Shown here: one piece after another, positions 36,690 to 46,210 of the stretch | How positions within the stretch are numbered: the stretch's first letter is position 1 | Layout: each line of letters starts with the position of its first letter | Assembly (NCBI GenBank): GCA_014860745.1 | Contig: JACZJC010000003.1 | Location: 54,681 to 118,680, forward strand | Length of the DNA: 64,000 nucleotides | Source: Anaerolineales bacterium | GTDB taxonomy: Bacteria > Chloroflexota > Anaerolineae > Anaerolineales > Villigracilaceae | Reading direction: 5' to 3' | Notes under the pieces: generated by a model | Told to the model about the DNA's origin: nothing | The model's input: the letters and a program-made list of their open reading frames with translations, nothing else | Database searches by the model: none | Translations under genes and position numbers: made by a program

Positions 36690-37283
36690 TTACTCAGTCC
36701 AATGATCGTTAAGACCAAGACCGGGCGCATTTACTTTGACTTGCAGGCCGTGATACCCACCAACAGGATCGTTGTAAACCTCCTGAATGATTTCGTATTG
36801 GCCCCACAGGGAACCGCCCGGTCCAACCCACACGATCTTGACGAAGTAGGTGTAGTGAGCATCCTGCGTGCCGTCTCCGTCCGAGTCATATTCGCCGATA
36901 ACGTGATTGGTCTCCCACCCTTGGCTGATGCCAGCTGAGCCGCGATCCAACTTGCCATCGCCAGTGCAGTCCTTATTAGACAGCCAATCCTCGGACCATT
37001 TCATCGTCAGCATATCGTCCACATAGTCGCCAGTGGAACCCCAGTATGTTCCATCCAGGTTGCGGTCAACGCTATCGTAAGTGCCATTGAACATGTGCGC
37101 CTGATAGTTGTATCCAAACTGGTCATACCCTAACACCAGCGGATTCCCGGCGCTATCCATCAGGGTTCCATCCTTAATCGTGACGCAGGCGGGATCAAGG
37201 GAGTTGGGCTGCGCCTGAGCAATGGTGGTTGAGAAAGCCAAAATCAATAACACGACAAACAGAGTGAATAGTTTCTTTTTCAT
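36690..37283 (-). CDS. Secreted protein of unknown function
   Basis: 197 residues with a clear Sec signal peptide cleaved after AQAQ (~25). The mature part is acidic and aromatic with many Asp/Gly/Tyr: GYDQFGYNYQAHMFNGTYDS, DRNLDGTYWG, CTGDGKLDRG and EYDSDGDGTQD, the last three resembling calcium-binding DxDxDG loops. Strong RBS AAGGAG. No family recognised; probably an extracellular Ca-stabilised protein. Confidence 0.8.
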   Translation of the reverse strand: MKKKLFTLFVVLLILAFSTTIAQAQPNSLDPACVTIKDGTLMDSAGNPLVLGYDQFGYNYQAHMFNGTYDSVDRNLDGTYWGSTGDYVDDMLTMKWSEDWLSNKDCTGDGKLDRGSAGISQGWETNHVIGEYDSDGDGTQDAHYTYFVKIVWVGPGGSLWGQYEIIQEVYNDPVGGYHGLQVKVNAPGLGLNDHWTE

Positions 37284-37689
37284 TTTTTTCTCCTTTTCTT
37301 AATGGTTTGAAAAAATAGACTCGACAGAATCAGTGGAAGTGTTTCACCTCCTTTCATTCCAACTGGAAACAAATAACCGGCCACAAAGGCCGGTTTCGCT
37401 ATTGGCTCCCTGATAACCTGTAAGCGTCCAAGATAAGTTATCAGATCATCGCTGCCTGAATTTCACGTACAAGTAGTGAAAAGAAATATTATCCCCTGAC
37501 ACCTCCCCGGCGAATTTTCATATAACGTCCCTACCTAAATAGCATAGCAAAAACAGGGAGAAAATACAACTGGGCAATTGTTGCATGTTTATTGCAATTC
37601 CCGGATACATTTTGTGGAAGTGCCATTCTTCCACTTGACCATCCCCCCCTCCCGTCCTACAATTCAACTGTCTGACAAATCAAAATGAG
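37284..37689. other. Long intergenic region between divergent genes
   Basis: Contains a hairpin AACCGGCC/GGCCGGTT (37375-37395) and, on the minus strand, a perfect AAAGGAGGTGA anti-16S match (37344-37354) with no good ORF behind it. The rest (37400-37690) is AT-rich without a gene I can support; presumably the promoters of both flanking genes. Confidence 0.5.
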
Positions 37690-37797
37690 GGTGCGTCGCA
37701 CCTGACTCGATGCGATATTCCAACCCGTAGCATCTACTCGTTTAAGAAGCATAGTCCACCCGTGAGGTCCCCATTCGGGGATGATATGCGACGCACT
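37690..37797 (+). promoter_or_regulatory. Structured 5' leader of the glyA-gcvT fusion gene
   Basis: GTGCGTCGCA near 37692 is exactly complementary to TGCGACGCAC at 37788-37797, closing a ~105-nt region containing two local hairpins (GATGC/GCATC and TCCCC/GGGGA). The closed-stem, multi-hairpin form just upstream of the RBS suggests a cis-regulatory RNA. It does not match the glycine, THF or SAM-I consensus that I know. Confidence 0.45.
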
Positions 37798-37822
37798 ACC
37801 ATATCCATTAAGGAGACTTACA

Positions 37823-40800
37823 ATGCCCGATTTTCTATTCCGCGGTTCGCTTGAAAAACTCGACGCGGATGTTTACAAGCTGACCCAGCTCGAAGCGGAG
37901 CGGCAGTATCGAAAGTTGATCCTGATCGCGTCCGAGTCCACCGCGCCGATGGCAGTCCGCGAGGCGCTGGCTTCCGCATTCCAAAATATCTATGCGGAAG
38001 GCTATCCCGATGAAGATACGCGTGTGATGGATGACGAGGACATTCTCGATTATCCCGCCCGCCTCGGCAATTACCGCCGCAACAGTGACCCGCGCTATTA
38101 CAAGGGCGTGGAGTACGCGGATACGGTCGAAGCACTCGCCCGCCGCCGCGCCGCGCAGACCTTCTCCGCCAACGGATATTCTGCCGACCAGATCTTCGTC
38201 AACGTGCAGGCGTTATCGGGTGCGGCCGCCAACAACGCGGTCTATCATGCGTTGATCAACCTCGGCGATACTGTGATGGGACTCAATCTCCTGCACGGCG
38301 GACATCTCTCCCATGGCTCGTCCGTCAATCGCAGTGGAAAATATTACAAGGCCGTGCATTACACCATCGACCAGAACGAAAAAATTGACTATGACGCCGT
38401 GCGCGCATTGGCACTGGAAAACAAACCCAAGCTGATGATCGCTGGCTATTCATCTTATTCATGGGTTCCAGATTGGAAGAAATTCCGTGAGATCGCGGAC
38501 GAAGTCGGCGCGTATTTCCTCGCGGACATTTCACACATCGGCGGTTTGGTGGCGGCGGGCGTTGTGCCTTCCCCCATCGGATACGCTCATGTGGTCATGT
38601 CTACCACGCATAAATCGATTGACGGCCCGCGCGGTGCAGTCTTGATGACAACGGATGCGGCGATTGCGAAGAAGATTGACAAAGCCGTCTTCCCTGGCGA
38701 ACAGGGCGGCCCGCATGTGAACGTGTTCGCGGCTCTTTCCTTAACCTTCAAGTTGACTCAGACCAGGCAGTTTAAACAACTCCAGGCACAGACTCTCAAA
38801 AATGCAAAAGCCATGGCGGACCAGTTCACCAAGCGCGGACTGCGCGTCCCGTTTGGCGGCACGGATACCCACCTCGTCAATGTCGATTGCACCAGCATTG
38901 TCGGTGAGGACGGAACCAAATTGAGCGGTGACCAAGCCTCGCGCATTTTGGATATCGTGGGTGTGGTGGTAAATCGCAACACCATTCCCGGTGACAAGAA
39001 TTCGATGGACCCGAGCGGCATTCGTCTCGGCACGCCGTGGATCACTCAGCGCGGATTTGACGAGAAGAAGACTCGCGAACTCGCCAACATCATGGCAGAT
39101 GTGTTGTTGGCATGTGCGCCATATTCGGTGGACACGGTCAAGAAAGGCAAACAACGCCGCGCAAAGTTGGATTTCAACGTGTTGAACGAAGCCAAGTTGA
39201 AGATTCGAAAATTAGCAACCTCCGCAGGCATTGACTTCAAGCCGACCAAGAATGGCTATCCTCATTTCTATTACATCGATGACAAAGCCACCACAGGCGT
39301 GTACGAATTGAGCGGACAGCGCATTCGTCAGGTGTTGGATTTTGCGGTGTCTTCTGACCTTTCTGCCTTGAAGAAGGGAAAATCGCAAGAAACGTTCATT
39401 GCAACGCCAAAGGGAGGGGCGCGCGGCACTTTGGCCAAAGTGGACGATACGACCTATCACTTACAGGTTCCTGCAGCGAAAGCGGGCATGGTCGGTACAT
39501 GGCTGCGTGACCTGTCTGATGGGTATGTTTCGTTCAAGCTTGATGGCGAGAAGGATTTCTCGGCGGCGCGCATGCCCGGCCCGTTCGTTGTGACGGAGAT
39601 CAAGAAGAAGCTCAAAGCGGTGGCCGGGAAACCTGTCAGCCAGAGTAAACCCTGGTTCATCGGCGACCTGCCCAAGGTCAGCGCTGAACCGCATCGCATC
39701 GTCTCGAAAGATGTCTTGCCGCCTTTCGTCTGGAATGAATCTGAGGGCGAGTTGAAGAAGACGGCGTTGAATCAAACCCATCGTGATCTGGGCGGCAGAA
39801 TGGTCCCCTTTGCGGGTTGGGAAATGCCTGTGCAGTACACGGGGATTTTCGAGGAGCACCTTGCCACGCGCAATGCGGCGGGGCTGTTCGATGTTTCGCA
39901 CATGGGCGTGTACGATGTGCGCGGCGCGGATGCGGCTTCGTTCCTCGATACGGTCTGCGGCAACGACTGCGGCGGACTGCTGCCGGGCGAGTCTTTGTAT
40001 TCGCATTTCCTCACGCCCGATGCGGACGTGATCGACGACACGCTCGTCTATCGCCGCGGCTGGGACAATTATCTCGTGGTCGTGAACGCGTCTAACGATG
40101 ACAAGGACCGCACGTGGCTCGAAAGTGTGCGCGATGGCAAAGTGAAGATCGATAACACGCGTCCCTTCGCGCGGACGTATGGATATAACGCCGAGATCCG
40201 CAACCTGCGTGACCCGAAAGCTGGTTCTGCCATGCGGGTGGATATTGCCCTGCAAGGTCCCAAGAGCCGCGACACGTTGCTGGCGATGGGCGTGGACGAT
40301 GCGACCCGCGCGCGCATTATGAAGTTGAAGAGAACTGAGTTGTGCGATGCGGTGGTTGGTGGATTCGATTTGATTGTGTCTCGCACAGGCTACACAGGCG
40401 AGAAGCTGGCTTTTGAATTATTCGTCCACCCCGAACGCGCCGTTGACTTCTGGCTGGCGGTGATGAAAGCGGGTGAGCAGTTTGGTGTCAAGCCGATCGG
40501 CTTGGGCGCACGCGACTCGCTCCGCACAGAAGCAGGCTTGCCATTGTATGGTCACGAAATGGGACTTGGCTCTGGCAAATTTAAAGGCAGAGATTTAGGC
40601 GTAGCTGAAGGCGGATTTGGTTCCTACGTCAAAACCTACAAGCCGTGGTTCATCGGTCGGGACGATTACGTGGCACGTGAGAAAGAACGCAAAGGCGGCG
40701 TCATCCGCTTCACCTTCGATGACCAGCGCGTGCGCATGGCGCACAACGGCGACCCCGTGGTCAACGCCAATGGCGAGCGCATTGGTTTCGTCACCTCCTG

Positions 40801-40951
40801 CGCGATTGATGGACAGCGCTTCATTACAGGTCAGGCGTTCTTGGAATTTGCGTACATGAAGGAAGGCACGCCGATCTTTATTCATCAAGGCGGCGTGATG
40901 GAACGTCCCGCCACAGCGGCGAAGGTGGTGAGTCGGTTTGCGAAGTTGTAG
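37823..40951 (+). CDS. glyA-gcvT: Serine hydroxymethyltransferase fused to glycine cleavage T protein
   Basis: 1042 residues from the ATG at 37823 (RBS AAGGAG). Residues 1-~440 are SHMT with the PLP lysine K264 in STTHKSIDGPRGA and the GGHLSHG loop. Residues ~440-640 are an extra region containing a KPWFIG motif. Residues ~643-1042 are aminomethyltransferase GcvT: LNQTHRDLGGRMVPFAGWEMP, AGLFDVSHMGV, LALQGPKS-type DIALQGPKS, SRTGYTGE and a second KPWFIGRDDYV. SHMT makes 5,10-methylene-THF from serine; GcvT makes the same product from the aminomethyl group held by GcvH. No gcvH, gcvP or lpd is in the window. Confidence 0.95.
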   Translation: MPDFLFRGSLEKLDADVYKLTQLEAERQYRKLILIASESTAPMAVREALASAFQNIYAEGYPDEDTRVMDDEDILDYPARLGNYRRNSDPRYYKGVEYADTVEALARRRAAQTFSANGYSADQIFVNVQALSGAAANNAVYHALINLGDTVMGLNLLHGGHLSHGSSVNRSGKYYKAVHYTIDQNEKIDYDAVRALALENKPKLMIAGYSSYSWVPDWKKFREIADEVGAYFLADISHIGGLVAAGVVPSPIGYAHVVMSTTHKSIDGPRGAVLMTTDAAIAKKIDKAVFPGEQGGPHVNVFAALSLTFKLTQTRQFKQLQAQTLKNAKAMADQFTKRGLRVPFGGTDTHLVNVDCTSIVGEDGTKLSGDQASRILDIVGVVVNRNTIPGDKNSMDPSGIRLGTPWITQRGFDEKKTRELANIMADVLLACAPYSVDTVKKGKQRRAKLDFNVLNEAKLKIRKLATSAGIDFKPTKNGYPHFYYIDDKATTGVYELSGQRIRQVLDFAVSSDLSALKKGKSQETFIATPKGGARGTLAKVDDTTYHLQVPAAKAGMVGTWLRDLSDGYVSFKLDGEKDFSAARMPGPFVVTEIKKKLKAVAGKPVSQSKPWFIGDLPKVSAEPHRIVSKDVLPPFVWNESEGELKKTALNQTHRDLGGRMVPFAGWEMPVQYTGIFEEHLATRNAAGLFDVSHMGVYDVRGADAASFLDTVCGNDCGGLLPGESLYSHFLTPDADVIDDTLVYRRGWDNYLVVVNASNDDKDRTWLESVRDGKVKIDNTRPFARTYGYNAEIRNLRDPKAGSAMRVDIALQGPKSRDTLLAMGVDDATRARIMKLKRTELCDAVVGGFDLIVSRTGYTGEKLAFELFVHPERAVDFWLAVMKAGEQFGVKPIGLGARDSLRTEAGLPLYGHEMGLGSGKFKGRDLGVAEGGFGSYVKTYKPWFIGRDDYVAREKERKGGVIRFTFDDQRVRMAHNGDPVVNANGERIGFVTSCAIDGQRFITGQAFLEFAYMKEGTPIFIHQGGVMERPATAAKVVSRFAKL
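40898..40951 (+). repeat. Direct repeat A: native 3' end of glyA-gcvT
   Basis: The last 54 nt of the gene, together with the following AG-rich tract and terminator, recur downstream at 41975-42014 and 42430-42483. See the findings for interpretation as integration or duplication scars. Confidence 0.85.
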
Positions 40952-41001
40952 GAAGTAGGGAGAGGAAAGTGGGGAGTGGAAAGAGGAAAGAAGAAAGATG
41001 G

Positions 41002-41036
41002 GACGGCCTAGGGAGGGCAGGCCGTCTCTTTTTTTT
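41002..41036 (+). terminator. Terminator of the glyA-gcvT gene
   Basis: 8-bp stem GACGGCCT/AGGCCGTC (41002-41009 and 41019-41026) followed by TCTTTTTTTT. Confidence 0.9.
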
Positions 41037-41050
41037 GGCAGCGCAAAGAG

Positions 41051-41056
41051 TATAAT
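41051..41056 (+). promoter_or_regulatory. -10 box close to start codon (leaderless-type promoter)
   Basis: Consensus TATAAT, 6 nt before the ATG at 41063, the clearest case in the window; no Shine-Dalgarno possible in the gap. Confidence 0.65.
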
Positions 41057-41062
41057 TACAAC

Positions 41063-41845
41063 ATGAAGAAAACCATTGTGGGCGAGAATTGGTATTTCGT
41101 TGATGAAACAAGTGATCCTGTTTTTTATGATGCGCGGGGAAATCTGATTGTTGGAGCAGAAGGTTGTTCCTTAATTCTTGGAATCGGTTTTGTCGAAACA
41201 GATCAACCAGCCATCATTCGTCAGGCCATTGCAGATTTACACCAACAAGTGACCAGCGATAAATATTTACAATCCATTCCATCGATTTCCAAAACAAACC
41301 GTGCTTTTCATGCAAAAGACGATGCTCCTGAAGTGCGTTACCTCGTTTATCAAGCACTTTCCAAGTTGAACTTCAAGGCGCAATTTGTAATTGCCCGAAA
41401 AATTGAACGGGTTTTTCGGAATTCCTTCGATGCCAGAGAGACCAAATTTTACGATCATTTGGTCAGCCAATTGTTTACGAATGTATTACACCGCCATGCT
41501 AAGAACCATGTGTACTTTGCACAACGAGGTTCCAAAACTCGGCAGGCAAATTTAGAAATGGCAATTAATAATGGAGTTGCAAAATTTGAGTCGCGCTGGA
41601 CGACTAAAGTGGAAACGCAAACAAATGTAATTCCTCAGACTCCAGTTGGCGAGCCATGCCTGCAAGTGATCGATTATATGAATTGGGCAGTGTATCGGGC
41701 GTTTATCAGGCGGGAAATGCGCTATTTCGATTTTATTGCTGATAAGGTTAGCTTTTTAGTGGACTTGTACGACATGCAAAATTACCCCAAAAATTGGTAT
41801 TCCCGAGAAAATCCTTTTGACATCAAAAAAGTCAGCCCCCTGTAG
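41063..41845 (+). CDS. DUF3800 domain protein
   Basis: 260 residues. WYFVDETSDPVFYD at the start carries the conserved Asp-Glu pair of DUF3800, and LQVIDYMNWAVYRAFIRREMRYFDFI near the end is the family's C-terminal signature (usually ADY). DUF3800 proteins have an RNase H-like fold and are frequent in genomic islands; nuclease activity is assumed, not shown. First cargo gene between two copies of the gcvT 3' end. Confidence 0.8.
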   Translation: MKKTIVGENWYFVDETSDPVFYDARGNLIVGAEGCSLILGIGFVETDQPAIIRQAIADLHQQVTSDKYLQSIPSISKTNRAFHAKDDAPEVRYLVYQALSKLNFKAQFVIARKIERVFRNSFDARETKFYDHLVSQLFTNVLHRHAKNHVYFAQRGSKTRQANLEMAINNGVAKFESRWTTKVETQTNVIPQTPVGEPCLQVIDYMNWAVYRAFIRREMRYFDFIADKVSFLVDLYDMQNYPKNWYSRENPFDIKKVSPL

Positions 41846-41974
41846 GCTAGGCTCGTATACCGAGCGCATGGCTTGGAGCCAGCTTTTACCTACAGGCGAC
41901 CGACTAATATACTAATATTGTATACTTTTTTCTTAAAAAGTCAATTCAATATTATGAGAGTTTCATGACAATCG

Positions 41975-42014
41975 CACGGCAGCGAAGGTGGTGAGTCGGT
42001 TTGCGAAGTTGTAG
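41975..42014 (+). repeat. Direct repeat B: duplicated gcvT 3' end
   Basis: 40 nt matching the last 40 nt of the fusion gene with very few differences, including its TAG stop, followed by a hairpin (42037-42071, AAATGGGA/TCCCATTT) in the position of the native terminator. Confidence 0.85.
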
Positions 42015-42036
42015 TGCTGGGTAAATAGTAATTGGT

Positions 42037-42071
42037 AAATGGGATGGCGAAGGATGGTCGCTGTCCCATTT
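42037..42071 (+). terminator. Hairpin of repeat unit B
   Basis: AAATGGGA/TCCCATTT stem followed by GTTTTG; counterpart of the terminator after repeat A. Confidence 0.55.
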
Positions 42072-42175
42072 GTTTTGAGTGGAGTGGAAAGTGGTTGTAT
42101 AATCATCCAAACATAAGCGGGAAACAAGGTTCTGTATAACAAAAACGGGGCAGGCCCATATTCAAGAAGGAAAAC

Positions 42176-42430
42176 ATGATGACAAATCAAGATGAACGGC
42201 AGCAACTGGAGCAGGAACAGGAAGAGAAACGAAAACTGCGGCAGCAGGAACGGCAGCAGTTGGAGCAGCAGCACCAACAGAAACAAAAACCACAGAAAGA
42301 TGAACAACAGCTTTTGGAGTTGGAGCAGGAACAGAAGCGGAAAGTGCGGCAGCAGGAACAGTTGCAATTAGAGTTGGAACAGGCAGAGAAGCGAAAATTA
42401 CGGCAGCAGGAAGAGCAGCAGAAAAAATAA
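42176..42430 (+). CDS. Small Gln/Glu/Lys-rich coiled-coil protein
   Basis: 84 residues, over two thirds Gln, Glu, Lys, Arg and Leu. Four imperfect repeats of the type LEQEQEEKRKLRQQ give leucines at heptad-like spacing, so a continuous charged coiled coil is expected. RBS AAGAAGGAAA and a TATAAT box at ~42096 support expression. Second cargo between gcvT-end copies B and C; its stop overlaps the first base of repeat C. The hydrophobic frame on the opposite strand is a by-product of the repeats. Confidence 0.55.
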   Translation: MMTNQDERQQLEQEQEEKRKLRQQERQQLEQQHQQKQKPQKDEQQLLELEQEQKRKVRQQEQLQLELEQAEKRKLRQQEEQQKK

Positions 42431-42483
42431 TGGATCGTCCCGCCACGGCGGCGAAGGTGATGAGTCAGTTCGCGAAGTTGTAG
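42430..42483 (+). repeat. Direct repeat C: duplicated gcvT 3' end
   Basis: 54 nt matching 40898-40951 with about five mismatches, including ATGGA-CGTCCCGCCAC and the stop codon, then GAATTAGTGAATGGAAAGTGG and a GATGGG/CCCATC hairpin (42515-42544) like that after A. Confidence 0.85.
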
Positions 42484-42553
42484 GAATTAGTGAATGGAAA
42501 GTGGAAAGAAGAAAGATGGGTAGTCTGTGGGGAGGCCGCCCATCTTATTATCG

Positions 42554-42928
42554 TCATGACTTTTCAAAACGAAAAAATCTTTCCATCGGATCGAATACTT
42601 TCCATCCTTTTGATGATTCTAGCTCAACAAGCTCTATAAACTCTCTTATAGTCCGTTTAGTAGAATCGTTTGGGAGTTCCTCGGTTATTTCAATCCCGTT
42701 GAATTCGTGAAATGAAATGTCGTCACCTAACGGAAATTCTTCAAAAAAGAGCTCTTGCAATTCAATCTGTTTAGCTATGAAAAATAATTTTTGAATGAAA
42801 GTCTTTTCCAAACTATCTTTTATCTCAACTAAAGAAAGATACTCAGGGTTTGAGAAAACAACATTTCCGAAAATCTTATAATTACCTGCGTCTCGGTATA
42901 AATAATTAAATTTGATGTTTTGGGGCAT
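42554..42928 (-). CDS. Hypothetical protein
   Basis: 124 residues, acidic, no signal or membrane segment. Alternating beta (NVVFSNPEYLSLVEI) and helix (KRTIREFIELVELESSKG). AT-rich compared with the chromosome outside the island. No family recognised. It ends its unit behind the HNH nuclease gene with a 16-nt gap, so the two are probably co-transcribed and may cooperate. Confidence 0.6.
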   Translation of the reverse strand: MPQNIKFNYLYRDAGNYKIFGNVVFSNPEYLSLVEIKDSLEKTFIQKLFFIAKQIELQELFFEEFPLGDDISFHEFNGIEITEELPNDSTKRTIREFIELVELESSKGWKVFDPMERFFRFEKS

Positions 42929-42944
42929 TAGAGCTCTCCATATA

Positions 42945-43706
42945 TTACGAAATAAAAATATTCTCGTTGTGGTATTTCAAGAAGTCTGGGTTGGGCTTAA
43001 ATCTACTAGGCAGAGTTATTTCTGCGCCGTCATAATTTACTAAAAACATCTTCAAGGCATTATTGTCAGACTCAGGTTTTAACTTCGGGGAAATCTTTAG
43101 ACGATAATCCGGAGTGATAGTTATCAGGCCTCTATCAAATGCACGATCGTGAATTGCGTTCAAACACAAACCATTCCGAGGATTAACACGATTGGCAATG
43201 TCAATTGCCCAAGGAATAATGTGGCTGGCATTTAACAGTTCAACTACCTCAAGAGAAGTTACGCAACATTTATTATTATAGGCTGCAAGAACTGTTGCTC
43301 GGAAAAAGCTTTGATTAACCCTAACTCGGACTCTTGTTTCTCGTTCTTTACCTTCAACAATTTTCTCAATATCTTCGAATGTCTCTTCTATTTCCTTGCC
43401 CGTAATTTCCGCTAATAATTTTTCACTCTCAAAAGCAAGTCTTTCCCAATCGGCGCTAAACTCATTCCATACTCCGATTTCTTCCTTGCTCCCATGTGTT
43501 GCACCTGAAATATTTCGCTTTTGCAAGGTTGGGTCAAGTCGAGCAAAATTAGCAAGTTTCCAAGATAAGGCTGATGGCGTACGTCCAAGTGAATTGGCGA
43601 GAGAAATTATTTGTGGGTTACGAATGTGAATCTTACCAAATGGGATTTTGCAATATAAATTGAAGGCAACGATTAATTCTTCTCTTGACCAATTTCGTTT
43701 TGTCAT
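42945..43706 (-). CDS. HNH endonuclease
   Basis: 253 residues. The C-terminal part has the HNH core: CCVTSLEVVELLNASHIIPW, then NPRNGLCLNAIHDRAFDRGLI, with the conserved His-Ile-Ile-Pro-Trp, Asn and His. The N-terminal ~70 residues (SREELIVAFNLYCKIPFGKIH, SLGRTPSALSWKLANFARLD) form a helical domain usual in restriction-type HNH proteins of islands. It cuts DNA; specificity unknown. No adjacent methyltransferase is present. Confidence 0.88.
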   Translation of the reverse strand: MTKRNWSREELIVAFNLYCKIPFGKIHIRNPQIISLANSLGRTPSALSWKLANFARLDPTLQKRNISGATHGSKEEIGVWNEFSADWERLAFESEKLLAEITGKEIEETFEDIEKIVEGKERETRVRVRVNQSFFRATVLAAYNNKCCVTSLEVVELLNASHIIPWAIDIANRVNPRNGLCLNAIHDRAFDRGLITITPDYRLKISPKLKPESDNNALKMFLVNYDGAEITLPSRFKPNPDFLKYHNENIFIS

Positions 43707-43775
43707 ATTAACCCTTTGCTCTTAGAGACAACATGTATATATTTTACAACTAAAGTCAAATTATTTTGCAAATAG

Positions 43776-43982
43776 ATGCGGGTATTAAGAGAGGCCCCAA
43801 AAATTGAAGGAAAACATATACTCACTTTGCAATCAGGCATTACTGTAACTCAACTGGCGAAAATGGAAACTTCAAAGGTGATCTTAATCGTTCCAGAGTC
43901 TCTTCACAAAGAATACCCAACCGAGAAGAGGCCAATTTCTATTCAAAAATTTCTTGATGACTTGAAAAAAGTCTATGTCTGA
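43776..43982 (+). CDS. Fragment resembling the C-terminus of a type II restriction endonuclease
   Basis: 68 residues: HILTLQSGITVTQLAKMETS, VILIVPESLHKEYP and ISIQKFLDDLKKVY. This order of motifs is like the C-terminal end of EcoRII-like type II enzymes, where the catalytic core lies further upstream and is missing here. Overlaps the vsr pseudogene by 8 nt, a typical arrangement of restriction-modification plus vsr loci. I read it as a relic; family assignment is from memory of the motif, moderate at best. Confidence 0.4.
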   Translation: MRVLREAPKIEGKHILTLQSGITVTQLAKMETSKVILIVPESLHKEYPTEKRPISIQKFLDDLKKVYV

Positions 43983-44385
43983 TGTTCTGACCCCCGAACA
44001 AAGAAAATATAATATGTCGAGAATCCGTTACAAGGATACTCGACCTGAAATGATTGTGCGCTCATTAGTTCATAGAATGGGATTTAGATACAAGTTACAT
44101 AATTCTGTGCTTCCGGGAAAACCCGATTTAGTTTTTAAACGGCACAATAAAATTATTTTTGTTCATGGCTGTTTTTAGCATATGCACAAATGCAAATACG
44201 GAAGAGTTAAGCCTAAAACAAATGCTGAATTTTGGGAAAATAAAAGATTAAGCAATGTTGTACGAGACAGGAAAATCATCAGAGAATTAAAAAGAAATGG
44301 TTGGCAAGTCTTGATAGTGTGGGAATGTTGGATCAGGGATATTTCTTTTCTGAAGAAAAAAATATCAGCATTTTTGATTGAATAG
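43975..44385 (+). pseudogene. vsr: vsr, very-short-patch-repair endonuclease, amber-interrupted
   Basis: Two pieces in one frame match Vsr: residues 1-67 (LTPEQRKYNMSRIRYKDTRPEM, catalytic D51 in GKPDLVF, HGCF) and, after one TAG at 44176-44178, HMHKCKYGRVKPKTNAEFWENKRLSN to the end. The stop replaces Trp-68 (HGCFW), a TGG-to-TAG single-base change, in an otherwise intact gene of normal length. Vsr nicks next to T:G mismatches left by deamination of 5-methylcytosine. Its restriction neighbour is only a fragment and no cytosine methylase is present, so it has probably lost its purpose. Confidence 0.88.
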
Positions 44386-44587
44386 TTATAGAGAACGCCC
44401 ACGTTATTAGGGAGGATAGACCTCACCCTGATTGAGTCCGCTTTTAAGCTGGGTAATTTGCCCCTTTGCGCAGAACCCTGTGGGCTCCTAAAAGGAGAGG
44501 CATTTTGTTTCTGCTATAAGTCGGTGCGGACTAAAGTCCTTCATCGGTTCGTGGAAGTCGGCTGCGCCGACTCAGCGAAGGCTGTGG
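44386..44587. other. Non-coding junction at the end of the island
   Basis: About 200 nt with several short palindromes (for example AGTCGGCTGCGCCGACT, 44557-44573) and no ORF. It separates the vsr relic from the VapBC-type pair. Confidence 0.5.
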
Positions 44588-44621
44588 TAAAATGCTAAGC
44601 AAATAAGCACTTTTGCTTAGC
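44588..44621 (+). promoter_or_regulatory. Promoter and operator palindrome of the toxin-antitoxin pair
   Basis: A TAAAAT -10 box (44588-44593) abuts a 10-bp perfect inverted repeat GCTAAGCAAA/TTTGCTTAGC (44594-44603, 44612-44621), directly followed by the RBS AAGGAG. Position and symmetry fit autorepression by the AbrB-type antitoxin. Confidence 0.6.
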
Positions 44622-44631
44622 AAGGAGATTT

Positions 44632-44886
44632 ATGACCACAACCACTGTCAAAGTCAGTTCGAAATATCAGATCGCTGTCCCACAAATGGCACGCAAGAAA
44701 CTAAACATCAAACAAGGGGATCTTCTGCTTGTGGATGTACAAGACGGCGTGATCGTTTTGATCCCACAGCCCAAACGCCATGCCGATTATCTACAAGGTC
44801 TGCATGGTGATATTTGGAAAGGCGTGGATGTCGAAAAATACCTCAACGGGGAGCGTGACGCATGGACGAGTTCAGCAAGCGATTAG
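44632..44886 (+). CDS. AbrB/MazE-type antitoxin (VapB-like)
   Basis: 84 residues. The swapped-hairpin DNA-binding domain occupies residues ~4-50 (VKVSSKYQIAVPQMARKKLNIKQGDLLLV). The C-terminal ~30 residues are acidic and probably wrap the toxin. Overlaps the PIN gene by 25 nt, so strictly coupled. Preceded by a palindromic operator. Confidence 0.88.
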   Translation: MTTTTVKVSSKYQIAVPQMARKKLNIKQGDLLLVDVQDGVIVLIPQPKRHADYLQGLHGDIWKGVDVEKYLNGERDAWTSSASD

Positions 44887-45314
44887 CAAAAGCAAAAGTC
44901 ATTGGACTGGATACGTCCATTTTTATTTATTTCCTTGAAAATAACGAACGGTACGGGCCATTGGCTCAGGTCACCATCAACGGTATTGAAAAAGGAAAGT
45001 GGCAGGGGGTAACATCCACGATCACGCTAATGGAGATCACTGTCCGCCCGTGGCAGTTGGGGCGCGAATTAGCAGCGCGGGAATATGAAGCTGTTTTGGT
45101 GCATTTTCCAAACTTATCCATTGTGGATGTGGATCGAAATGTTGCGCGTGCAGCAGCTCAATTGCGTGCCAAGTACAACGTCGCTCCACCTGATGCATTG
45201 CAGGTGGCTGCAAGTCTCAACTTTGGTGCAAAGGCATTTTTGACAAACGATAAAAGATTATCCAGATTGCAGGAGTTGATCGACATTCTTGTGCTCGATG
45301 ATTTTGTGGAATAA
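44862..45314 (+). CDS. PIN-domain ribonuclease toxin (VapC-like)
   Basis: 150 residues. PIN acidic residues are present: D17 in GLDTSIFIYFLE, the Glu in LMEITVRP, Asp in PPDALQVAASL and the Asp in FLTNDKRL. VapC toxins cleave tRNA or rRNA. Full length. Together with the antitoxin it forms a complete type II toxin-antitoxin module at the island border. Confidence 0.92.
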   Translation: MDEFSKRLAKAKVIGLDTSIFIYFLENNERYGPLAQVTINGIEKGKWQGVTSTITLMEITVRPWQLGRELAAREYEAVLVHFPNLSIVDVDRNVARAAAQLRAKYNVAPPDALQVAASLNFGAKAFLTNDKRLSRLQELIDILVLDDFVE

Positions 45315-45448
45315 AAACCGTCGACGTTGATCGATCAAGATAATTTTTGAGCTGGGCGATTGTCCACCCCGCTTATGATAGCAATTGACAGTAAGATGTT
45401 GTATGATGAAACTGTCCCTGTGGCAAATATTTCAACATGGAGAACATC

Positions 45449-46210
45449 ATGAACAAAGACACACTGCGTCAACTGGCCAATGCGCTATCCGTCCTGCTCG
45501 CGCTGACCGTCAATGTCCTCGCCAGTACCCTGCCGCTTAATGGACAGAACACAGGCGAGATATCAGACCGCTTTCAAGTCTACTTTGTCCCTGCGGGATA
45601 CGTCTTCGCCATTTGGGGCATCATCTACATCGGCTGGATCGCTTTCAGCATTTATCAATTCCGACCTGCACAAAAGGAAAGTCCGCGGCTGCGCAATCTC
45701 GGATATTTATTTGCCTTGAGCGGCATCTTCAACGCGGCCTGGCTTTTCTGCTGGCATTACAACCTGTTCGGTTTGAGTGTGCTTGTCATGCTCACCCTGC
45801 TCGGCCTGCTCATCGCCAGTTATCTCAAACTCAACACCGGGCGCACGCCTGTAAGCGCCGCTGAAAAATGGAGCGTGGATATTCCTTTCAGCGTCTACCT
45901 CGGCTGGATCTCCGTCGCCACCGTTGCCAATGTCACCAGCTATCTTTACTTTATCAACTGGACTGGATTCGGGATCGCACCGCAAGTTTGGGCAGTCATC
46001 ATGCTCGTCATCGCAAGCGTGCTCGCCCTGGCTATGACGGTCACCCGCAGCGACAGCGGCTACGCCTTCGTGTTGGTCTGGTCCTTCGCTGGCATCGCTC
46101 AAAAGCAGGCCGATACGGCACTGGTGGCGAATAGCGCCTGGGTCGCAACAGTCTTCGTGCTTGGGCTGGCAATCTACAGCATCATTCAACGCCGCCGCCT
46201 GACGGCATAA
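45449..46210 (+). CDS. TspO/MBR-related tryptophan-rich membrane protein
   Basis: 253 residues from the ATG at 45449 (GGAG 7 nt upstream). Seven or so helices; FVPAGYVFAIWGIIYIGWIAF and AAWLFCWHYNLFG match the first helices and the WxxxF pattern of TspO-like proteins, and SVYLGWISVATVANVTSYLY the later ones. It is longer than classical five-helix TspO (~155), so it belongs to the extended bacterial group. TspO proteins bind tetrapyrroles; ligand here unknown. Confidence 0.8.
   Translation: MNKDTLRQLANALSVLLALTVNVLASTLPLNGQNTGEISDRFQVYFVPAGYVFAIWGIIYIGWIAFSIYQFRPAQKESPRLRNLGYLFALSGIFNAAWLFCWHYNLFGLSVLVMLTLLGLLIASYLKLNTGRTPVSAAEKWSVDIPFSVYLGWISVATVANVTSYLYFINWTGFGIAPQVWAVIMLVIASVLALAMTVTRSDSGYAFVLVWSFAGIAQKQADTALVANSAWVATVFVLGLAIYSIIQRRRLTA

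Follow-up and report, generated by a model that had tools for sequence, protein, structure and literature searches.

Integron arrays are made up of small open reading frame (ORF) cassettes in series, with a short repeat behind each ORF, and the enzyme lies outside the cassette. In staphylococci the 3' end of orfX/rlmH is the site of the staphylococcal cassette chromosome (SCC), whose units are far larger than the cassettes treated here and have ccr genes as well as inverted repeats at their termini. One report describes a region in staphylococci that is bounded by orfX and lacks ccr (PMC3637587), and another describes the dif modules of Acinetobacter plasmids, which are small, often encode toxin-antitoxin systems, lie between inversely oriented Xer sites and are mobilised by Xer in trans (PMC13141974). 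Described here is an array of small cassettes at the 3' end of gcvT in a 64,000 nt stretch of an Anaerolineales genome (the window; GCA_014860745.1, contig JACZJC010000003.1, positions 54,681 to 118,680), in which copies of the end of gcvT, here called END, are repeated behind the cargo. Comparison of related genomes supports the reading that portable cassettes have been repeatedly inserted at this one gene end. Targeted literature searches found nothing on gcvT in connection with an integration site and a genomic island, and nothing that by its listing was relevant to defence system hotspots in the Anaerolineae.

In the window, which belongs to genome G000 (the genomes compared are given G numbers), the host gene and the array are arranged as follows.

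37781..40951, + strand: glyA-gcvT fusion (SHMT plus aminomethyltransferase), 1056 aa, the gene whose end is copied (ORF; Pfam SHMT 3e-122, GCV_T 7e-79)
40898..40951, + strand: END A, the native final 54 nt of gcvT (sequence)
41000..41028, + strand: GGGACGGC-type terminator hairpin 3' of END A (hairpin scan, fold)
41051..41056, + strand: TATAAT, -10-like, 6 nt 5' of the ATG of cargo 1 (sequence; the related GYTGTATAAT is in other modules)
41063..41845, + strand: cargo 1, DUF3800-type protein, 260 aa (ORF; PADLOC DUF3800_VII 3e-27; homologue in the same place in G044, L145)
41838..41898, + strand: imperfect, conserved hairpin at and past the cargo 1 stop, a possible structured RNA (identity with G044; fold z -3.7)
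41975..42014, + strand: END B, copy of the final 40 nt of gcvT (38/40 identical; profile E 5e-11)
42036..42072, + strand: terminator hairpin 3' of END B (42041-42067 in the hairpin scan; fold of 41975-42075, z -3.8)
42094..42103, + strand: GTTGTATAAT, promoter-like motif (of the 15 motifs of this type found behind gcvT across 75 loci, 13 sit no more than 260 nt past an END)
42176..42430, + strand: cargo 2, Q/E/K/R-rich coiled-coil ORF, 84 aa, its stop codon overlapping END C (ORF; other species have ORFs resembling it at this site)
42430..42483, + strand: END C, copy of the final 54 nt of gcvT (49/54 identical; profile E 6e-11)
42513..42546, + strand: terminator hairpin 3' of END C (fold)

An earlier, sequence-only reading of this stretch had claimed that the end of gcvT recurs twice downstream, and it does so at the positions of END B and END C, with the stop codon present in all three ENDs. 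A hairpin follows each copy in the folds and the hairpin scan, and the AG tract is found again 3' of END C (2 matches versus 0.01 expected). Across the assembly, which is 4.32 Mb in 82 contigs, the only strong matches to the gcvT end besides the native one are C (E 9e-22) and B (E 4e-11), the remaining 18 matches listed being located in the spacer or short, with an E of 1e-4 or weaker. The gene between A and B had been read as DUF3800, for which there is the PADLOC match but no Pfam family above the cut-off. The coiled-coil gene is present between B and C, as an ORF for which the Pfam and PADLOC searches found no family match. The nearest named relatives of this gcvT are from metagenome-derived Chloroflexi. 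There is no match for 40880-42560 in plasmids and phages, a single exact IUPAC pattern found END in 0 viral contigs, and the Rfam search of 37000-46000 gave 0 matches.

The 3' regions of gcvT were compared in 57 genomes of the genus, of which 47 matched, and then in 152 genomes of the family, of which 76 matched. With duplicates merged there are 75 loci and 665 kb of downstream sequence, which was scanned with a profile of native gcvT ends. At E<0.01, 24 extra ENDs are present in 18 of the 75 loci, the best E among reversed-sequence decoys being 0.37; 13 of these 18 loci are from the window's genus, four from a second genus, and one from a third. Two or three copies are present in five loci and one in each of the others. 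All 24 are on the same strand as gcvT, the farthest ending 2141 nt from it. A locus of a fourth genus, in G074, has an extra END at E 0.086, which is above the threshold, and a copy with a deletion in G027 was detected by alignment alone. Because many loci stop at contig ends, 18 of 75 is a lower bound.

As a control, the ends of 1103 ORFs, each with an open frame of 150 codons or more, were searched for in the 3 kb that follow them; the ORFs come from 66 fetched stretches that were all selected for holding gcvT and in part overlap. Just 17 of the ORF ends are repeated at 30/40 or better, and 15 of these are the end of gcvT, from 13 different genomes. On a gcvT tree of 52 rows, 14 of them scored as copy-bearing under a stricter scan, there is no clustering of END copies (13 changes versus a shuffled mean of 12.6).

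The cargo in front of the END copy differs between genomes, the cassettes being about 0.3-2.1 kb in size. A DUF3800 gene is in this position in G000 and G044; AbiEi-AbiEii in G006 and G033, and inverted in G109; MNT-HEPN in G004, G037, G042, G101, and G074, with MNT alone in G019; and a coiled coil in G000, G033, G010, G008, G047, G104, G037, and G100. To these can be added, named from our own reading of their sequences, BrnT-BrnA in G103, PIN-like and ASCH-like proteins in G028, and a membrane protein in G055. There is no clear gene preceding the first END of G104. The same cassette is also found at different places in the order. The AbiE cassette is first in G006, with gcvT on its left, and second in G033, with the coiled coil on its left, and the homology between the two, at 81%, begins in one END, runs across AbiE and takes in the following END with its hairpin. 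Similarly, the coiled coil is first in G033, G010, and G008, and second in G000 and G037, and the F17-F18 pair is first in G028 and G016, and second in G004. In G109 (stretch L026, 9264-11000) the inverted AbiE operon lies between gcvT and END, with AAGCRGTAAAAT before the END, as it is in the non-inverted cassettes of G006 and G033.

For 102 of the 182 first-zone ORFs Pfam shows 90 families, among them HEPN, AbiE, PIN, nucleotidyltransferase, restriction-modification, and reverse transcriptase families, as well as others not associated with defence, such as PPK2, TspO, and TPR. The commonest first-zone families in PADLOC are AbiE and PDC-S09/M05A. An ISL3 transposase is found in two cases, and no integrase or resolvase family is present in two or more of these ORFs. 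It would appear to be for defence that the cargo is retained. In L060 (8334-10427) the second gene past the second extra END encodes a DRT-type reverse transcriptase (PADLOC RT_UG19, E 3e-142), a relative of which is directly behind gcvT in G040.

The differences between the copies and the resident gene end are mostly synonymous. In 16 gap-free copies, 60 codons differ from the resident end, 43 of them synonymously, which leaves 28% amino-acid-changing, as against 18% of the codon changes between pairs of native ends. Simulated random change has a mean of 74-81% amino-acid-changing, with 0 of 2000 runs per setting as low as 28%. When all 25 copies are taken, including that of G074, registered at the 3' end and with gaps unmended, 67 of 122 changed codons are synonymous and 55 (45%) amino-acid-changing, and again 0 of 2000 runs are as low. 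From this synonymous excess it follows that much of the divergence arose while both ends were coding. For the most part the copies have thus changed in the manner of functional gene ends and not of tandem duplicates undergoing decay, though some of them have since decayed. An excess of this kind is predicted if a cassette imports the end of another lineage. Some old ends look displaced. In G044 the distal END and spacer are a better match (110/129) to the native END and spacer of the sister genome G028 than the proximal ones of G044 are (102/148). The distal END of G028 has the GGGTTGG form that is native in G005 and G044, a form which the G028 gene itself no longer has. The ends of G037, G042, and G101 look mosaic.

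With other cargo, reordered cassettes, and mostly synonymous differences in the relatives, the serial insertion of elements that bring a replacement gene end, as the sequence-only reading had it, is supported. The comparison of gcvT 3' junctions it had proposed finds other cargo at the same joint, and the variation in cargo is not the simple tandem duplication, free of variable cargo, that it had named as speaking against insertion.

The repeated joint consists of END and a spacer, often with a hairpin, and often with a promoter-like motif. The left edges of the END copies are mostly between -40 and -68 (-68, about -57, about -50, and about -42). In a gap-free change-point test the match to gcvT is lost between -68 and -16, the copies under -40 being mostly gapped. 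Beyond -68 none of 23 copies matches gcvT, whereas in 68 of the 75 native genes the match to the consensus extends over 126 or more of 130 nt. The GYTGTATAAT motif, present in MNT, coiled-coil, and DUF3800 cassettes, occurs 15 times, and 13 of these occurrences are no more than 260 nt past an END, in windows that make up about 4% of the sequence. One cassette, F20, a recent transfer, is shared by G019 and G055, which are 97% identical within it and 86% in the next block; its left edge is in the hairpin, and the END and spacer differ between the two.

The explanation favoured here, to which we give about even chances, is insertion by homologous recombination through the shared end, hairpin, and promoter. 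Donor DNA from relatives, arriving by transformation or another route, would hold END, hairpin, promoter, cargo, and END, and a fragment of it would recombine with the single resident END, one cassette at a time. Any crossover within END would leave gcvT intact, with an additional END behind the cargo, such that the cassette supplies gcvT with a new, functional end and displaces the old one downstream. The cargo would often arrive with its own promoter and terminator. It is likely that the copy serves as a built-in homology arm, through which cassettes land and stack without a recombinase gene of their own, and since each cassette carries this arm, growth, shrinkage, and exchange could all take place in an array that has no enzyme of its own. 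Homologous recombination is chosen because no new enzyme is needed and because it fits the mosaic ends, the recombinase not being linked, the confinement to gcvT, and the hairpin edge of F20. The mosaic ends and the hairpin edge fit incorporation in this way, which is not to say that they prove it. The suggestion in the sequence-only reading of a trans-acting or new mechanism is not established, as the variable left edges, the hairpin edge, and the mosaic ends fit ordinary homologous recombination also.

Several observations weigh against recombination of this kind. An END of only 40-68 nt is short for RecA, and the first acquisition of an END by new cargo is not explained by the homology arm. 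There is no extra END at E<0.01 in 57 of the 75 loci, several of which hold cargo with no END found behind it, and the association of the GGGACGGC hairpin with copies is not significant (12/17 versus 20/47, P 0.09). The copies tend to resemble the end of their own genome, which is not what a foreign donor would predict: among the 75 ends the genome's own ranks first for 5 of the 16 copies, two of these being ties, and its median rank is 3; the donors would therefore be close kin, or the ends partly homogenised. It is the proximal spacer of G042, not the distal, that matches its sister G007, the distal spacer of G028 has no clear match to that of G005, and the proximal ends show no visible sorting by cargo among the MNT-HEPN genomes. 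The contigs of G100, G006, G033, and G004 are just 4.8 to 20 kb, in which a linked recombinase could escape notice. The stop codons of three unrelated cargo genes, the coiled coil of G000, the HEPN of G037, and the BrnA of G103, are also on the same END base, the final base of each stop being 53 nt before the end of the copy, on the TGA/TAA of gcvT's GTRATGG. This common base resembles a fixed joint more than free homologous exchange.

Such a joint would suit a site-specific recombinase encoded elsewhere in the genome that recognises the 3' end of gcvT and, acting in trans like Xer or the integrase of an integron, inserts and excises small cassettes that have no recombinase. This is possible, at rather less than even chances. 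The near confinement of repeated ORF ends to gcvT (15 of the 17, out of 1103), the single orientation of all 24 copies, the failure of any of the 23 copies to reach past -68, and the identical stop base in three cargo families all suit it, as does the AbiE of G109, which is on the minus strand while the orientation of END is kept. A Xer-like tyrosine recombinase, which could serve, is present in 139 of the 152 genomes, as a single match in 137. The left edges vary, though, and one recent edge is in the hairpin, outside END; inspection of END by eye shows no inverted core like that of Xer sites or attC; and none of the recombinase matches listed is linked to the array within the reach of the contigs. 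Of 19 cassette genomes, 17 have no match to PF00589 (tyrosine recombinases) on the contig that bears gcvT, and in the other two the nearest is at 225 kb (G109) and 1.36 Mb (G047). No PF00239 serine recombinase in 57 genomes is nearer to gcvT than 20 kb, that being a fragment in G042. The earlier statement that no integrase is left thus holds for the neighbourhood, and only as far as the contigs reach.

A related suggestion, put forward tentatively, is that an integron-like system not yet described may use the 3' end of gcvT for attachment. A recombinase encoded elsewhere would shuffle defence cassettes in it, the coding end of the host gene would be their sole mobility signal, and each insertion would renew the gene. 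The integron integrase model TIGR02249 has matches above the cut-off in 34 of the 57 genus genomes, with the window genome below it. None is close to gcvT, and only in G005 and G041 are the two on the same contig, more than 1.6 Mb apart. One such match is G005:C1:3989108-3990043. In one stretch, L161, a 36-nt repeat is present nine times, the copies being possibly attC sites. When 10 stretches surrounding TIGR02249 matches were scanned for attC, none was found, which leaves the scan without a positive control and uninformative on attC.

A copy of END is also found away from gcvT in G071 (G071:C3, L167 5060-5507), where the end of a HEPN gene, a gcvT END, and a coiled-coil gene lie between a Xer-like gene and tRNA-Val. 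This END (L167 5119-5178) was considered as a link to a recombinase and rejected, the adjoining Xer-like gene, which matches the NCBIfam XerD model at E 5e-25, below the cut-off, being that present in 139 of 152 genomes, and the fragment beginning inside the end of the HEPN gene. We read it as an array piece that was probably detached through rearrangement.

Another explanation is selection for transcription, in which cargo inserted in various ways would be kept only where it has a terminator, the duplicates of the gcvT end and terminator acting as ready-made 3' untranslated regions. In the window there is a hairpin behind every END, and cargo stops often abut END. In G109, however, END lies 5' of the inverted AbiE operon, where it cannot act as the terminator of that operon, no hairpin is evident by eye behind the distal END of G010, and the synonymous excess requires a coding history; this explanation is unlikely. 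Simple tandem duplication of the gcvT end with local decay is very improbable, for while the genome's own gene end is the closest to the copy, or ties for closest, in G044, G042, and G037, and does so for each of the two copies in G000, the cargo between the ends differs and the synonymous excess counters duplication followed by decay as a general account. That the arrays are assembly artefacts of metagenome-derived genomes can hardly be credited, since, although most of the genomes surveyed are fragmented, END copies recur across many assemblies and are present in G047, a one-contig genome of 4.40 Mb.

The hairpin at the end of cargo 1 is more conserved than the gene, the 100 nt past the stop being 96% identical to G044 versus 83% in the coding part. 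It is matched in 10 of 152 family genomes. In G131 (L233) it adjoins a gene that by eye resembles the same DUF3800 type, and in G002 it is close behind gcvT, with no DUF3800-type gene listed there. The hairpin at 41838-41898 (also L229-L236) is possibly an RNA partner of DUF3800. Behind the array, positions 42554-45314 of the window are rich in defence genes, with an HNH protein, an EcoRII-C piece, a Vsr-type piece, and a MazE-PIN pair, and there is a TspO-like gene at 45437.

Cassettes of this kind would provide a simple route by which defence genes gather at one chromosomal spot without mobility genes, the piece of host gene being the cassette's ticket, and a repeated gene end might be used as a sequence tag in the search for hidden cassette arrays at other genes and in other phyla. 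The array resembles integrase-borne islands at the 3' end of a gene in that the cargo is flanked by direct repeats of the gene end, but no integrase gene was found inside the element. As with the dif modules, which a host recombinase moves in trans, the cassettes are small and often toxin-antitoxin, whereas the END copies are all direct (24/24) and not inversely oriented. SCC elements likewise insert in series behind a single housekeeping gene, at its 3' end, in some cases without recombinase genes; here the target is gcvT, the cassettes are about 0.3-2.1 kb, and no ccr genes or terminal inverted repeats were seen. Integron arrays share the serial small ORF cassettes, the repeat 3' of the ORF, and the lack of an enzyme in the cassette, but the repeat here is the coding end of the host gene, the promoter-like motif and hairpin are frequent, and there is no integron integrase match at gcvT. 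Minimal mobile elements are also whole-gene cassettes without a recombinase that vary between genomes beside a conserved gene. They differ from this locus, where the right flank is not conserved, no conserved gene being found on the far side of the array (at most 9 of 53 loci share any protein family within 6.5 kb behind gcvT), and where the cassettes can stack serially and carry with them a copy of the end of the host gene.

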